A stretch of 50,673 nt of DNA from the NCBI GenBank assembly GCA_028282295.1, contig JANQIE010000255.1, forward strand, positions 1 to 50,673. The letters run 5' to 3'. Source of the DNA: Desulfobacterales bacterium. Its GTDB lineage: Bacteria > Desulfobacterota > Desulfobacteria > Desulfobacterales > JANQIE01. This document shows, piece by piece, positions 4,744 through 27,071 of the stretch; within the stretch, counting starts at the first letter, position 1, and each line of letters begins with the position of its first letter. The notes beneath the pieces are model-generated. The model was not told where the DNA came from and did not search any database. It saw nothing but the letters and a program-made list of their open reading frames with translations. A program made the position numbers and the translations under genes.

Positions 4744-4900
4744 TTAGTTAGTGTCCATCCGGAAATAGCATCTTTTGGCGCCTGGCGGCGTTCTCGCTTT
4801 TTTTTGATCCTCGGCAGTAGCCCGCTATGCCTGCGGTTTAAAAAAAGCTCGGGCCTTGCCAGGAACCAAAAGCTGCTATTTCCGGATGGACGCTAGTTAA
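4744..4900. repeat. Long imperfect hairpin element, copy 1 of a dispersed family
   Basis: The two ends are inverted copies: TTAGTTAGTGTCCATCCGG at 4744-4762 against CCGGATGGACGCTAGTTAA at 4882-4900. The arms continue as AAATAGCATCTTTTGG / CCAAAAGCTGCTATTT and CCTGGC / GCCAGG. An internal loop (GGCGTTCTCGC against GGGCCTTG) interrupts the stem. An inner stem of T-run against A-run follows, and then a small tip hairpin (GTAGCCCGCTAT). Nearly the whole 157 nt can fold on itself. The right end includes the stop codon of the neighbouring aldolase gene (4893-4895). It occupies the entire gap between that gene and the molybdopterin oxidoreductase. Related copies lie at 16936, 17820, 18975 and 26779. 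Confidence 0.85.
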
Positions 4901-6470: not shown

Positions 6471-6557
6471 CCTGGATTCCCGCCTGCGCGGGAATGACGA
6501 CGCAGGTTTTGCCCCGTCGTGTTTAGACACTCATTCCCGTGCAGGCGGGAATCCAGG
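6471..6557. repeat. Inverted repeat of the GATTCCCGCCTGCGCGGGAATGA type
   Basis: CCTGGATTCCCGCCTGCGC at 6471-6489 is mirrored by GCAGGCGGGAATCCAGG at 6541-6557, and each arm itself forms a small CCCGC...GCGGG hairpin. This kind of dispersed ATTCCC/GGGAAT repeat is common in proteobacterial intergenic DNA. It lies in the 620-bp gene-free gap 6190-6809, which also holds the next repeat and otherwise no supportable gene. Confidence 0.8.
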
Positions 6558-13103: not shown

Positions 13104-13152
13104 GATAATCTTCCTTTTCGTTGAGGTTATGGTTTAATCAGGGCGCAAATAA

Positions 13153-13329
13153 GGTTAATATCGATTTGATTCTGGACCCCGGCTTTCGCCGGGGTGACGC
13201 GAATAAGGTGCCATTTTACCCGACACCCCCTGACCGCGGGCACGGCTGATCCGGGACTCCGAATTAATAGTAAAAAAACAGTCGTCACCCCGGCGAAGGC
13301 CGGGGCCCAGAATCAAATCGATATTAACC
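13153..13329. repeat. 177-bp MITE-like inverted repeat element
   Basis: Near-perfect terminal inverted repeats of more than 40 bp: GGTTAATATCGATTTGATTC at the left end (13153) and the matching GAATCAAATCGATATTAACC at the right end (13310-13329). Each arm contains an inner CCCCGGC...GCCGGGG hairpin. About 70 bp of unique middle sequence separates the arms. The middle part reappears inverted at 18730-18785, and the right arm reappears at 18930-18967. No open frame inside is convincing, so it is a candidate non-autonomous mobile element. Confidence 0.82.
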
Positions 13330-13458
13330 TTTTTTGTCCTCCTAATCTCCAAATGCAGTTACCCTGCCTTCCAGCCCGGTCACGGTTGAATCCTGTTTGC
13401 GGCTATGTTAAAGGATTGCAGCTTGAAAACCCGAACAACCCTACAAGGATATTTTCAA

Positions 13459-14506: not shown

Positions 14507-14583
14507 CTTTGCGCCTCTGCGCGAAATAAAAAAAAACTGGCGCGTGCTCAGCCCGTTTGAGATGCTATCATTTCCGGACGGCC
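14507..14583. repeat. Fragments of two dispersed repeats
   Basis: GCGCCTCTGCGCGAAA (about 14511-14526) is a half copy of the palindrome at 26879-26944. GATGCTATCATTTCCGGAC (14561-14579) is a half end of the long hairpin family (compare TCCGGAAATAGCATC at 4758-4772). The latter begins directly after the TAG stop of the gene ending at 14585, as copy 1 does at 4893. Confidence 0.6.
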
Positions 14584-16744: not shown

Positions 16745-16935
16745 GGTGTTTCCTTGTTTACAGGTTTTACTCTTCGGCCGGATGGCCCATTTGACTTTTT
16801 TGCCGCTACACACTATTATTAAGATGTTTAACAAAAAACTGGAAAAAGCTAAACCCCGAGTAATCGGGGGGCGGAAAGCCATGGGTCCCTAAACGTTAAA
16901 GGGATTGCCAGGTTGCCCAAATTCATCAGAAAACG

Positions 16936-17123
16936 TAGGGCACGCGCAAAAATTATTTCACATTTTATGCATCCCGGCTTCAGGTCATCTTGGCCCGATC
17001 TTCGGTCCCAAAATCCTCACCATCGCTTGCTTGCTATGGCTGCGGTTTTGGCCCCTCAGATCGATCCAACCTGACCTGAAGCCGGGCGTCTAAAATGTGA
17101 AATAATTTTTGCGCGAGCCCTTA
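16936..17123. repeat. 188-bp long hairpin element, divergent subfamily (copy 2)
   Basis: An almost complete hairpin: AGGGCACGCGCAAAAATTAT at the left end and ATAATTTTTGCGCGAGCCCT at the right, then CACATTTTA / TAAAATGTG, CCCGGCTTCAGGTCA / TGACCTGAAGCCGGG and GATC / GATC. The arms differ in sequence from the 4744-type. The tip region is shared: AATCCTCA, a CCATCGC...GCTATGG tip hairpin and CTGCGGTT, with the inner stem CCAAAA / TTTTGG. It fills the gap between the divergent O-methyltransferase and 149-aa membrane-protein genes. Confidence 0.85.
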
Positions 17124-17244: not shown

Positions 17245-17694
17245 ATGCGAAACTATCTTTTTTGGAAAACACTATGGGTGGTGTACTGCTTATTTGTAAT
17301 ATTGACCACCCTGGTTCTCGCCATTGTTTCCATTTTTGCACCGATCGAGTTGGCAAGCTATATCGTCAGCATGGTCAATGCGGTGGCCCTGTTCGGCCTG
17401 GCGTACAATAAGCATTTGTGGGACCGGCGCATCTGGATCGGCCTATTGGCGGTCAATGGCGTGTTGTTGTTCCAAAAACTGAAGTTGTTCTGGGTGCCGG
17501 CGATACAATCCGGCATGCAGGAACCGGAACTGGTCATCGGCATCTTTGCCAGTGCCCTGAATGGCCTGATTTTATACGGTCTTTTTTTGTATACCTTCAG
17601 ATCGCCCTGGTTATGGAACAAGGCGATGCACAGTGATGATGCAACCGGTATTGAAAACACCGGCGCGCCCTCGGATGCCGGTGCCGTGCATTAA
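17245..17694 (+). CDS. Hypothetical integral membrane protein, 149 aa
   Basis: Four predicted membrane helices: residues about 8-32 (TLWVVYCLFVILTTLVLAIV), 35-55, 62-80 and 95-118. The hydrophilic C-terminal tail is about 30 residues long. A strong GGAGGAG lies 6-7 nt before the ATG. No conserved catalytic motif is visible and I do not recognise the family. A small stem (GGTAGA...TCTACC) at about 17186-17226 precedes the start and may be an operator or leader hairpin. The gene stands alone between two copies of the long hairpin element. Confidence 0.72.
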   Translation: MRNYLFWKTLWVVYCLFVILTTLVLAIVSIFAPIELASYIVSMVNAVALFGLAYNKHLWDRRIWIGLLAVNGVLLFQKLKLFWVPAIQSGMQEPELVIGIFASALNGLILYGLFLYTFRSPWLWNKAMHSDDATGIENTGAPSDAGAVH

Positions 17695-17819: not shown

Positions 17820-17962
17820 GTGTCCATCCGGAAATAGCATCTTTTGGCCCCTGGCGGCGTTCTCGCATTTTTAAAATCCTCGAAATAGCGCGCCATGCCT
17901 GCAGTTTTAAAAATGCCCGGGCCTTGCCAGAAACCAAAATCTACTATTTCCGAATGGGCACA
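17820..17962. repeat. Long hairpin element, copy 3 of the dispersed family
   Basis: Left arm GTGTCCATCCGGAAATAG at 17820-17837; right arm CTATTTCCGAATGGGCAC near 17944-17961. Then TTTTGG / CCAAAA, CTGGC / GCCAG, the conserved internal loop GGCGTTCTCGC / GGGCCTTG, and an inner stem GCATTTTTAAA / TTTTAAAAATGC. The inner stem differs from copy 1 on both sides yet still pairs. Tip: ATCCTCGAAATAGC...CCTGC. It lies between the 149-aa membrane gene and yceI, both on the plus strand. Confidence 0.85.
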
Positions 17963-18727: not shown

Positions 18728-18970
18728 GTTTCGGATTCCCGGATCAGCCGTGCACGCGATCAGGGGTGTCAGGTAAAATGGTACCATGTTAACCCGGCAA
18801 TAAAATACCTTTAGAATTGTGATTCCGGCGAGCGCCGGCACCAAACGTCAATTCTGGATGCCGGATCAAGTCCGGCATGATGAAGGCTTACATATTTAGT
18901 CGCCGTTTTAATATCCGCGTCACCCCGGCGAAAGCCGGGGTCCAGAGTCAAAACGATATTAACCTTTATC
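18728..18970. repeat. Rearranged copy of the 13153 MITE-like element
   Basis: TTCGGATTCCCGGATCAGCC at 18730 and the following 35 bp match, inverted, the middle of the element at 13153-13329 (about 50 of 57 positions). CACCCCGGCGAAAGCCGGGG at about 18920 and ACGATATTAACCTTT at 18954-18968 match its right arm. CCGGCGAGCGCCGG and GCCGGATCAAGTCCGGC form extra small hairpins between them. The 646-bp gap 18704-19349 holds only this, the next hairpin and a promoter. Confidence 0.7.
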
Positions 18971-18974
18971 ATCT

Positions 18975-19119
18975 GGTACCTATCCGGAAATAACATCTTT
19001 TGGTCCAGGACGGCGTTCTCGCCCAATTGCGATTCTCGATGCAGCTTTGCTACGCCTGCGGTTGCAATTAGGCTGCGGCCTTGTCCTGAGTCAAAAACTA
19101 CTATTTTCGGATGGATACC
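18975..19119. repeat. Long hairpin element, copy 4 of the dispersed family
   Basis: Left arm GGTACCTATCCGGAAATAA at 18975-18993; right arm TATTTTCGGATGGATACC ending at 19119. The middle stem is CCAGGAC / GTCCTG where copies 1 and 3 have CCTGGC / GCCAGG, a compensatory change. The GGCGTTCTCGC / GGCCTTG internal loop is conserved. The inner stem is AATTGC / GCAATT. The tip TTCTCGATGCAGCTTTGCTA is followed by CGCCTGCGGTT. Confidence 0.85.
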
Positions 19120-23608: not shown

Positions 23609-26449
23609 ATGATTGCAGCCATCGGTCTCTTCAGGGCGCATGCGACCAGTATTGATCGACTTGTCCAAACCACCGTTGGAAGGTCGGAAATGTTGGAGGA
23701 TCTGCTCGAGCATCTTATCAAAGATGCCGGAAAAAAAAGCGTACAGCACTTTCTATTCATCGGCCCCCGTGGAATCGGCAAAACACATTTTCTAAGCCTT
23801 GTGGAAAATGCCGTGGAAACGCGAAAAGCATTAAACGGTTTTTATTCAGTGATCCGATTTCCAGAAGAAAATAACCGAATATTAGGGTTTGCCGATATTC
23901 TTTTGGAAATTATTTCGAATTTGGACGAAATAGATCCGACTGGAAATTGGGGGGAAACGCATTCGAGACTGTCGAATCTGGATGACGACCAGGATATCAT
24001 CGATATCGCCCTTCCGCGACTGAGACTTTATCGCAAAAAAAGTGGTAAAATGCTGCTACTGCTCATGGAGAATTTGAACACGCTCTTTGGTGAGCAGATG
24101 AAACACAAACAGGATATCCATCGCCTTAGAACCTTTCTAATGGATTCGCCCTGCGCCACTTTGATTGGTACATCGCCGATAACCTTTCCGGGAGTTACCG
24201 ACGTTCGGGAACCATTTTTTGAATTCTTTGATATTCAGGTTATTGAGGATCTTTCGGAAAACCAGACGCTTGACCTTGTTAAAACAAACCTTGAAATCGA
24301 CCAGCGTAAGGATCTGCTTGACGATTTCGATGCGCTGATACCAAAAATCAAAGCACTGCATACCATGACCGGAGGCAATCCTCGACTCGCCATCATGCTT
24401 TATGAGCTCATCGCCTATGACAACATATTAGAAGTAAAAAACCAGTTTCAAAAATTACTGGATCAGGTCACCCCCTTTTATCAGGATCGCATGAGAGACC
24501 TCGCTCCCCAAGAACGGGCATTGCTGGAAACCATGGCGCTCATGCGCACCGAGCCCCGCACGCCTGCCGCTATTGCCGCCCGTATGCGAAAGTCCCCCCA
24601 GCAAACATCTTCTTTACTCAAAAGGATGATCGGTTCCGGATATCTGACCGTTACCCGCAATCCCCAGGATAAACGGTCACGACTTTATCGCATCAAGGAA
24701 GGTTTTTTCGATCTGTGGCTCGCCATGAGCGGTTCGCGTGCAACACGAAAACGTCTTGGTTATCTCGTAAAACTTTTTGAAGTTTGGTATCAAGATCCGA
24801 CAGAAAGAAATAAAAAACGATCAGAGCTTCGACAAGCGATAGAGAAAAAGCAACACAGGTCACATTCAGATGAGAACCAGTACACCTACCTGGATTATTT
24901 GACGGAAATTGGCGATTGCGACGAACGCTGTGAGGCCAAGCTTGAGCTTGCCTTCGATCTGCTAACGGCGAATAAAGCATCGAAGGCCAAGCGATTGCTG
25001 TTGGAGATAAAACCCCTGGCACCAAAGGCGGAAATCTTCACTTGGATGACTCGACAGGTAAATCATTGGGCTGAAAATGAATCCCCCCTTGATGTTTCAA
25101 AGTGGTTTAAAGGGTTAATCGAATATTGGAAAATTCAGCGGAGCGGTGATTTGGAAAACGCCGTGGCTATTGCTCAACGTCTCGGAATGGACCTTTCCGG
25201 CCAAGGGCTTCATAAGATCCGAATCAAACTTCTTCAAGATGCCCTTGTCTTTGCCGACACGCCAAATGATCAGATCCAAATGCATAACCAAATAGCCCAG
25301 AGTCAAAAAATGGATGGGCAATTAGATAACGCCCTTGAGTACCTGAAACAATCCCTGGCCATCTCGCAGGCGATCGGCGACAAGGCCGGTGAAGGGGCGA
25401 CGCTCAACAATATTTCGCAGATTTATCAATCCCGTGGCGACTACGACACGGCCCTTGATTACCTGAAACAATCCCTGGCCATCACACAGGCGATCGGCGA
25501 CAAGGCCGGTGAAGGGGCGACGCTCAACAATATTTCGCAGGTTTATAAAGCCCGTGGCGACTACGACACGGCCCTTGAGTACCTGAAACAATCCCTGGCC
25601 ATTTCGCAGGAGATCGGCGACAAGGCCGGTGAAGGGACGACGCTCAACAATATTTCGCAGGTTTATCAATCCCGTGGCGACTACGACACGGCCCTTGATT
25701 ACCTGAATCAAGCCCTGGCCATCACACAGGAGATCGGCGACAAGGCCGGTGAAGGGACGACGCTCAACAATATTTCGCAGGTTTATAAAGCCCGTGGCGA
25801 CTACGACACGGCCCTTGATTACCTGAAACAATCCCTGGCCATTTCGCTGGAGATCGGCGACAAGGCCGGTGAAGGGACGACGCTCAACAATATTTCGACG
25901 ACTTATCATGCCATTGGCGACTACGACACGGCCCTTGATTACCTGAAACAATCCCTGGCCATCAGACAGGAGATCGGCGACAAGGCCGGTGAAGGGACGA
26001 CGCTCAACAATATTTCGCAGATTTATCAATCCCGTGGCGACTACGACACGACCCTTGATTACCTGAAACAATCCCTGGCCATCACACAGGAGATCGGCGA
26101 CAAGGCCGGTGAAGGGACGACGCTCAACAATATTTCGACGATTTATCTATCCCGTGGCGACCACGACGCGGCCCTTGAGTACCTGAAACAATCCCTGGCC
26201 ATCACACAGGAGATCGGCGATAGCTCCGGGCTTTGTGTCACGCTGTTTAATATCGGCCATATTCACTATGCGAAGGAAGACATACCCAAGGCTGTGCAGG
26301 CCTGGGTGACGGTTTACCGATTGGCAAATTCCATAAATCTGGCACAAGCACTCGACGCCCTTGAAAACTTGTCCGAGCAGTTGGAGTTGCCCGGTGGGCT
26401 GGGTGGATGGGAAACATTAGCGAAGAAAATAAAGGGCGATGATCCGTAG
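23609..26449 (+). CDS. STAND-like ATPase with winged helix and eight near-identical TPRs, 946 aa
   Basis: Walker A GPRGIGKT (residues 52-59), with Walker B-like KMLLLLMENLN near 147-157. A C-terminal NTPase segment (TMTGGNPRLAIMLYEL) is followed by a MarR-like winged helix at about 300-360 (RTPAAIAARMRKSPQQTSSL; NPQDKRSRLYRIKEGFFDLW). A helical linker leads to the TPR region, about residues 571-890. Eight 40-residue units run GDYDTALDYLKQSLAITQEI then GDKAGEGTTLNNIS plus a variable six-residue segment. The C-terminal 60 residues hold a degenerate ninth unit. In STAND proteins such a repeat array usually senses a ligand and releases NTPase-driven assembly. No effector domain is visible, so the partner ATPase or another protein may supply output. 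A defence or signalling role is inference only. Confidence 0.85.
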   Translation: MIAAIGLFRAHATSIDRLVQTTVGRSEMLEDLLEHLIKDAGKKSVQHFLFIGPRGIGKTHFLSLVENAVETRKALNGFYSVIRFPEENNRILGFADILLEIISNLDEIDPTGNWGETHSRLSNLDDDQDIIDIALPRLRLYRKKSGKMLLLLMENLNTLFGEQMKHKQDIHRLRTFLMDSPCATLIGTSPITFPGVTDVREPFFEFFDIQVIEDLSENQTLDLVKTNLEIDQRKDLLDDFDALIPKIKALHTMTGGNPRLAIMLYELIAYDNILEVKNQFQKLLDQVTPFYQDRMRDLAPQERALLETMALMRTEPRTPAAIAARMRKSPQQTSSLLKRMIGSGYLTVTRNPQDKRSRLYRIKEGFFDLWLAMSGSRATRKRLGYLVKLFEVWYQDPTERNKKRSELRQAIEKKQHRSHSDENQYTYLDYLTEIGDCDERCEAKLELAFDLLTANKASKAKRLLLEIKPLAPKAEIFTWMTRQVNHWAENESPLDVSKWFKGLIEYWKIQRSGDLENAVAIAQRLGMDLSGQGLHKIRIKLLQDALVFADTPNDQIQMHNQIAQSQKMDGQLDNALEYLKQSLAISQAIGDKAGEGATLNNISQIYQSRGDYDTALDYLKQSLAITQAIGDKAGEGATLNNISQVYKARGDYDTALEYLKQSLAISQEIGDKAGEGTTLNNISQVYQSRGDYDTALDYLNQALAITQEIGDKAGEGTTLNNISQVYKARGDYDTALDYLKQSLAISLEIGDKAGEGTTLNNISTTYHAIGDYDTALDYLKQSLAIRQEIGDKAGEGTTLNNISQIYQSRGDYDTTLDYLKQSLAITQEIGDKAGEGTTLNNISTIYLSRGDHDAALEYLKQSLAITQEIGDSSGLCVTLFNIGHIHYAKEDIPKAVQAWVTVYRLANSINLAQALDALENLSEQLELPGGLGGWETLAKKIKGDDP
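25321..26280 (+). repeat. Eight tandem 120-bp units encoding TPRs
   Basis: Units begin at 25321, 25441, 25561, 25681, 25801, 25921, 26041 and 26161. Most pairs differ at only a handful of bases, including synonymous sites. Variation is concentrated in the segment coding (I/V/T)Y(Q/K/H/L)(S/A)(R/I) and at the I(T/S/R)(Q/L)(A/E)I position. The second half of the last unit diverges after 26220. The near-identity implies recent duplication or gene conversion. Confidence 0.95.
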
Positions 26450-26778: not shown

Positions 26779-26878
26779 GTGCCCATTCGCAAATAGCATC
26801 TTTCGCGCGATATCGGCGCTGAGCGGCAGATTTGAATCCTCGAAATAGTGAAAAGCCGGACTTCAAAGAACCCAAAAG
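26779..26878. repeat. Truncated copy of the long hairpin family
   Basis: GTGCCCATTCGCAAATAGCA begins at 26779, as in the other copies. ATCCTCGAAATAG in the tip is identical to copy 3, with an inner stem TTTGAA / TTCAAA. CCAAAAG (26872-26878) is the start of the right arm, which then breaks off at the next repeat (26879). Confidence 0.65.
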
Positions 26879-26944
26879 TTTCACGCAGAGACACAGAGGG
26901 GTGTTATTTGTGCCCCTTTGCGAACTCTGCGCCTCTGCGCGAAA
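26879..26944. repeat. 66-bp palindrome (TTTCACGCAGAGACACAGAG type)
   Basis: TTTCACGCAGAGACACAGAG at 26879-26898 pairs with CTCTGCGCCTCTGCGCGAAA ending at 26944. A half copy lies near 14511-14526. This is a widespread type of dispersed bacterial repeat. It interrupts the right arm of the preceding hairpin element, so it probably inserted later. Confidence 0.75.
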
Positions 26945-27071
26945 CAAAAAATAGTTATCGTTAGTTCAATGTGTCTACCCCGTGAACGGTTACGAAATAT
27001 CTCGCTGTCCCTGCGGCTCAAACTTGCCGCCTGCCTTGATCTCGCGCGAGCTCTCAGGGTGACGATCCCTT

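Follow-up and report, generated by a model that had tools for sequence, protein, structure and literature searches.

A conserved, covarying hairpin core within putative MITEs of a Desulfobacterales genome and of genomes labelled as several bacterial phyla

Hairpins of a single dispersed family occur in the stretch of Desulfobacterales DNA analyzed here (the window, 50,673 nt, which is contig C60 of a 5.46-Mb genome in 326 contigs), and genomes whose labels span several bacterial phyla contain the same folded core, with base changes that compensate each other in the stems. We consider it probable that the elements are MITEs enclosing a conserved core that acts as a protein-bound RNA fold. Its recurrence across these genomes and between the ends of unrelated transposons suggests a role for the fold itself.

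The initial annotation had described three hairpin copies and a truncated one in the window, and all four, designated type A, were recovered. The first (143 nt, GTGTCC..GGACGC, 4751-4893) is bracketed by the target duplication TAGTTA, read directly at 4745-4750 and again at 4894-4899; its folded strand (S), assigned from folding and G-U counts, is the minus strand, and its tip (the gamma module, minus-strand AACCGCAGGCATAGC..GCTACTGCCGAGGAT) was placed at 4807-4838 by a pattern search. Likewise on the minus strand are a 142-nt element that is now without a target duplication (17820-17961), a 143-nt element with diverged stems and flanks CATCTG/CTTCTG that agree at five of six positions (18976-19118), and a truncated element comprising the left arm and the start of the tip (26779-26850). 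The copies contain both the tip and the internal loop that had been noted before, the latter with GGCGTTCTCGC facing GGCCTTG. A fifth, divergent relative, missing from the earlier list, lies at 16938-17120 on the minus strand (183 nt, GGGCACGCG..CGCGAGCCC, flanks GTA/TTA); this type-B element has the tip module of type A and other ends. Directly upstream of it is a c-di-GMP-I-GGC riboswitch (16839-16921, plus strand, 67.1 bits), such that the region 16839-17120 reads riboswitch, 16-nt gap and type-B element, followed by an ORF at 17245-17694. The type-B insertion may lie in or after the expression platform of the riboswitch.

The window holds other repeats as well. Another dispersed palindromic repeat, GTCACCCCGGCGAAAGCCGGGGTCCAG..ATATTAACCTT, is present in inverted and direct copies at 13146-13336 and 18912-18967, and an inverted repeat with 27-nt arms that are 96% complementary (CCTGGATTCCCGCCTGCGCGGGAATGA) is located at 6471-6557. 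The repeat CTYTGCGCCTCTGCGCGAAAYAAAAAA is found at 14507-14533 and 26925-26951, the second copy just downstream of the truncated type-A element. Seven tandem 120-bp repeats (25286-26305, 73-90% identical to the reference copy) are contained in an ORF of 946 aa (23609-26449), possibly encoding a repeat protein of the TPR type.

Further copies abound in the source genome, far more than expected by chance: 119 tip sites were found genome-wide at three or fewer mismatches, against none for the reversed pattern, together with 85 BLAST matches. In a sample of 1.24 Mb, a type-A profile (HMM) recovered 117 loci, of which 75 were full length; this extrapolates to about 300-330 full-length type-A copies genome-wide, whereas another tally of 548 sites counts both arms of the palindrome and has to be halved to give elements. 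Type B is present in at least 30 further copies besides the one in the window. Contigs often start or stop within a hairpin element, and therefore the assembly was probably fragmented by the element itself; the family probably breaks metagenome assemblies.

Aligning the copies by their ends defined a type-A unit, GTGTCC...GGACAC, of 142-143 nt, and a second length class of 163-165 nt. These units are short and non-coding, have perfect 18-bp terminal inverted repeat arms in the consensus, and usually lie between direct 6-bp repeats with the palindromic consensus TAGCTA. The two flanks agreed at five or six of the six positions in 45 of 71 core-bearing copies, as against about 6% when flanks were re-paired. 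Direct 6-bp repeats of this kind are the mark of a DDE-type transposase and not of Y1 enzymes. At one locus (C91:10679) the interval between two identical ends, about 430 bp, contains a degraded fragment of an ISNCY transposase (NF033593, E=5e-8), the sole such match and the sole remnant of the type-A mover in the genome, no intact ISNCY element being found in this assembly. Genomes of the same order do contain intact ISNCY elements of 1.7-1.9 kb, with ends GTGTCC(A/G)TCC.. or GTGCCTGAACG.. and a TAnnTA target (L225, L235, and L224 are the intact relatives with type-A-like ends); they have only their outermost bases in common with the hairpins and the tip motif is absent from them. Judged by these ends and targets, the type-A units appear to be MITEs of an ISNCY-family (NF033593) transposon. 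The initial annotation had named, among its options, a substrate of a REP-type (Y1/HUH) transposase. The hairpin shape and high copy number would suit such a substrate, a reading that we nevertheless regard as very improbable, given the 6-bp target duplications and the match of the ends to the DDE-type ISNCY elements; moreover, the Y1 gene that had been envisaged near the copies did not materialize, as Y1 domains gave only three matches genome-wide, all on a single contig (C120) distant from the listed copies.

Types B and C have different ends, with TTA/TAA flanks in other genomes. In one Selenomonas genome, the type-C locus L105 and an IS5-family element (L347) have the same ends (GGGCGTGTTGATTAA). 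The type-B copies of the source genome also have TTA/TAA flanks, with a 3-bp agreement that was not above the null in the sample, and a DDE_Tnp_1 search of this genome found no autonomous type-B partner; here the IS5 assignment would derive from the flanks and from the similarity of the ends. Types B and C are tentatively interpreted as MITEs with IS5-type ends, the match of the ends being clear in Selenomonas. With ISNCY ends on type A and IS5 ends on type C, one core is therefore associated with two unrelated transposon families, and the folded core belongs to neither of them.

The core is also broadly distributed. Among the matches listed, the exact tip pattern occurs in records labelled Geobacter, Oryzomonas, Geothermobacter, Desulfosarcina, and Desulfobulbaceae, and in others labelled Scalindua, Planctomycetota, Nitrospira, Nitrospinota, Acidobacteria, Selenomonas, and Veillonellaceae, although several of these records come from metagenome bins and may be mislabelled. 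As an estimated few matches are expected by chance, single ones (e.g., Lewinella, Lachnospiraceae) need caution. A covariance model (R1), the kind of search that had been proposed from the window copies, matched all 46 host genomes tested, with from three to at least 86 copies in each, and 53 of 297 sampled genomes of the phylum at E<=1e-6. The exact tip pattern was found in none of 2.9 million viral contigs, and phage and plasmid records gave no BLAST match to the element. Several arrangements seen among the loci may be recorded here: three tandem type-A-like cores with 140-bp spacing in a Desulfobacteraceae bin (L123:1944-2253), elements lying within a common flanking repeat, CATAGCCGTCAAGCTAAG (L004, L019, and L039), and a flank similar to CATAGCCGTCAAGCTAAG that borders a type-B element in the genome of another species (L088).

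On the S strand (ACCGCAGGCGTAGC..GCTACGTCGAGGAT; in the window the minus strand, ACCGCAGGC..GUCGAGGAU) all types form a single long hairpin in which non-canonical modules follow each other in constant succession: alpha (AGAU/AGAU, with tandem G-A), beta (GAUUGA/GAUUGA, or CAAGGCCGCAG/GAGAACGCCG), and, at the tip, gamma (CCGCAGGC/GUCGAGG), the last being almost invariant in 60 sequences from many genera. Covariation was assessed on MAFFT alignments in whose fitting the structure was not used. In the alignment of these 60 sequences (A1), 93.6% of cells were paired, compared with 35-48% when slid, and cells in which both partners had changed numbered 242 versus 76 after shuffling; the corresponding counts were 124 versus 36 for types B and C (A2) and 148 versus 45 for type A and its relatives (A3). 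The covarying stems that had been suspected from a few window copies are thus borne out across many genomes, and selection on a folded single strand is supported. Conservation is not, as had been proposed, limited to the unpaired parts, since the tip stem is conserved too and, within a genome, so are the outer arms, i.e., the terminal inverted repeats.

Could such palindromes be functionless products of MITE decay, in which arm-to-arm gene conversion or template switching keeps the pairing and the loops are simply inherited? The units do seem to be MITEs, and the subfamilies within one genome are young and alike, as this explanation would have it. Correction from arm to arm, however, would erase asymmetric internal loops, and these are conserved both across genomes whose labels belong to several phyla and inside elements whose ends come from two unrelated transposon families; nor does the explanation give any reason for strand-specific G-U pairs. 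We therefore consider it improbable.

The strand specificity is seen both in the energies and in the wobble pairs. The folding energy of S was below that of its complement in 143 of 148 elements. G-U pairs in type B of other genomes averaged 7.7 for S, compared with 2.8 for its complement, with S higher in 33 of 36, and in type A of other genomes 7.8 and 5.1; the type A of the source genome had no S excess (4.6 versus 5.7). When limited to Watson-Crick-dominated pairs, the strand-neutral G-U excess was modest (76 versus 51). One pair of the tip stem stays G-U in 53 of the 60 sequences of A1. The GA motifs of the 3' arm lie 18, 29, 40, and 52 nt from the gamma (tip) module, and in types A and B a distance of 39 nt separates the tip from the outer alpha module of the 5' arm. 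Given that 11 nt correspond to one turn of A-form helix, this spacing would place the motifs on a single face of an RNA duplex. Two properties expected of a functional structured RNA were observed, namely more covariation than chance would produce and pairing that is specific to one strand. Good folding of one strand only, conserved G-U wobbles, and stacked G-A motifs 11 nt apart together favor RNA, and selection on a transcribed RNA fold seems to us rather likely. Of the options named in the initial annotation, a structured RNA is accordingly the one favored for the core, while the units themselves would be MITEs.

The main competitor is a fold selected as single-stranded DNA at the replication fork and recognized there by a transposase or a host nuclease, with insertion or survival depending on orientation. 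In the complete genome of Desulfosarcina alkanivorans (G186, NZ_AP021874), S is on the plus strand between about 1.0 and 4.6 Mb and on the minus strand elsewhere, and when replication halves are set by the sign changes of the GC skew, 75 of 95 copies have S on the lagging-sense strand (p=1e-8). A rough ORF call puts only about 54% of the genes of this genome on the leading strand, which means that the bias of the core cannot be explained by the direction of genes. Copies with a good match were more strongly biased (39 of 45) than weakly matching copies (36 of 50), the pattern that would be expected of a bias arising at insertion. A second complete genome, for which the origin was taken at position 1 and whose skew is shallow and terminus uncertain, has 21 of 26 copies in the D. 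alkanivorans direction (one-sided p=0.001). In addition, DNA energy parameters yield a strand preference identical to that of RNA. The D. alkanivorans bias favors some step at the DNA level, linked to replication, in at least one host, and with it this rival stays in contention. Against it, two further complete genomes with 13 copies each had no significant orientation bias, and neither did the source genome (within-contig orientation agreement 0.54, p=0.18); local GC skew, used as a proxy for the replication strand in draft contigs, gave no signal. Furthermore, it is the weaker-folding strand that is on the lagging-strand template, and the conserved wobbles and 11-nt phasing fit RNA better. 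On this evidence, we regard selection as single-stranded DNA as rather unlikely and return to the RNA fold.

The elements are intergenic: 5 of 84 overlap genes, although coding sequence takes up about 82% of the DNA sampled. They have no preferred orientation relative to neighboring genes (25:14 in this genome, 10:21 elsewhere, and in total 35 same and 35 opposite), and thus a cis-acting role in mRNA is not supported; in this genome there is also no excess of elements between convergent gene pairs. A terminator or a sense mRNA element, considered as a candidate, is unlikely for an intergenic element with neither a preferred direction nor enrichment between convergent genes. Near the tips in other genomes, no recurrent neighboring protein family was found beyond common ones. 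All recurrent length classes retain the core, and the copies without a tip (12 of 83) have scattered lengths; that the amplified classes keep the core suggests that it matters for amplification or persistence, a founder effect being possible.

We envisage the unit as a non-coding, almost fully palindromic MITE that would be moved in trans by a DDE transposase recognizing its outer ends, of ISNCY type for A and of IS5 type for B and C. Between the ends, the core forms on the S strand a long helix broken at fixed places by the ordered alpha, beta, and gamma modules. This fold may act as RNA, transcribed from the element or across it, and a host protein, as a candidate partner, could bind one face of it; such binding might favor the persistence and amplification of elements in which the fold is kept. 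A bolder version, which we put forward as a speculative possibility, has one ancient structured-RNA module, its non-canonical G-A motifs phased by one helical turn, carried into several bacterial phyla within the ends of unrelated DDE transposons and acting in trans via a dedicated or host RNA-binding protein, with its insertion coupled to the replication fork.

The hairpin family is missing from Rfam: no family of Rfam 15 matches it, the best sub-threshold hits having E=0.27 (L106) and 1.3 (window copy). Our literature searches for the motif returned a sole relevant paper, which lists 24 copies of "predicted short RNA elements" in Geobacter metallireducens (Aklujkar et al. 2009, PMC2700814, Fig. 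S1). These elements are multicopy and intergenic, an RNA was suggested for them, and their central palindrome, GRCGTAGCGCTGCTACGCC, is the same tip; in the portion of that account available to us (PMC2700814), they come without transposon ends, target duplications, internal-loop anatomy, covariation or a link to other phyla. The initial statement that no described family has this layout is therefore nearly right: it agrees with Rfam, and the exception is the 2009 description of the central palindrome in the 24 G. metallireducens copies. Several loci of Geobacteraceae, among them L079 and L107, contain the palindrome GRCGTAGCGCTGCTACGCC exactly.

Other dispersed repeats offer partial parallels. 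REP/BIME sequences with their RAYT transposases are also dispersed hairpins with conserved tips; they are shorter, have no target duplication and depend on a Y1 enzyme, features that the hairpins described here do not have. ERIC (IRU) elements of enterobacteria are intergenic imperfect palindromes of about 127 bp; they have TA-type target duplications and fold upon transcription, a likeness to the hairpins in general layout, and ERIC is not known to change ends between IS families. The bcr1-type repeats are confined to one species group, unlike the hairpin core, and we know of no core in them that is shared between unrelated IS families. As intergenic MITE-like repeats that are often in transcripts, bcr1 elements are nevertheless the nearest functional precedent (PMC3446304), about half of the bcr copies in the Bacillus cereus group being within transcripts (PMC3446304). 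Four features appear to be new in comparison with these systems: the way in which ends are exchanged between IS families, the breadth of occurrence, the modular fold supported by covariation, and the replication bias. MITEs are usually regarded as junk defined by its ends; here it is the middle that is conserved and the ends that are exchangeable, which makes the purpose of the fold a testable question.
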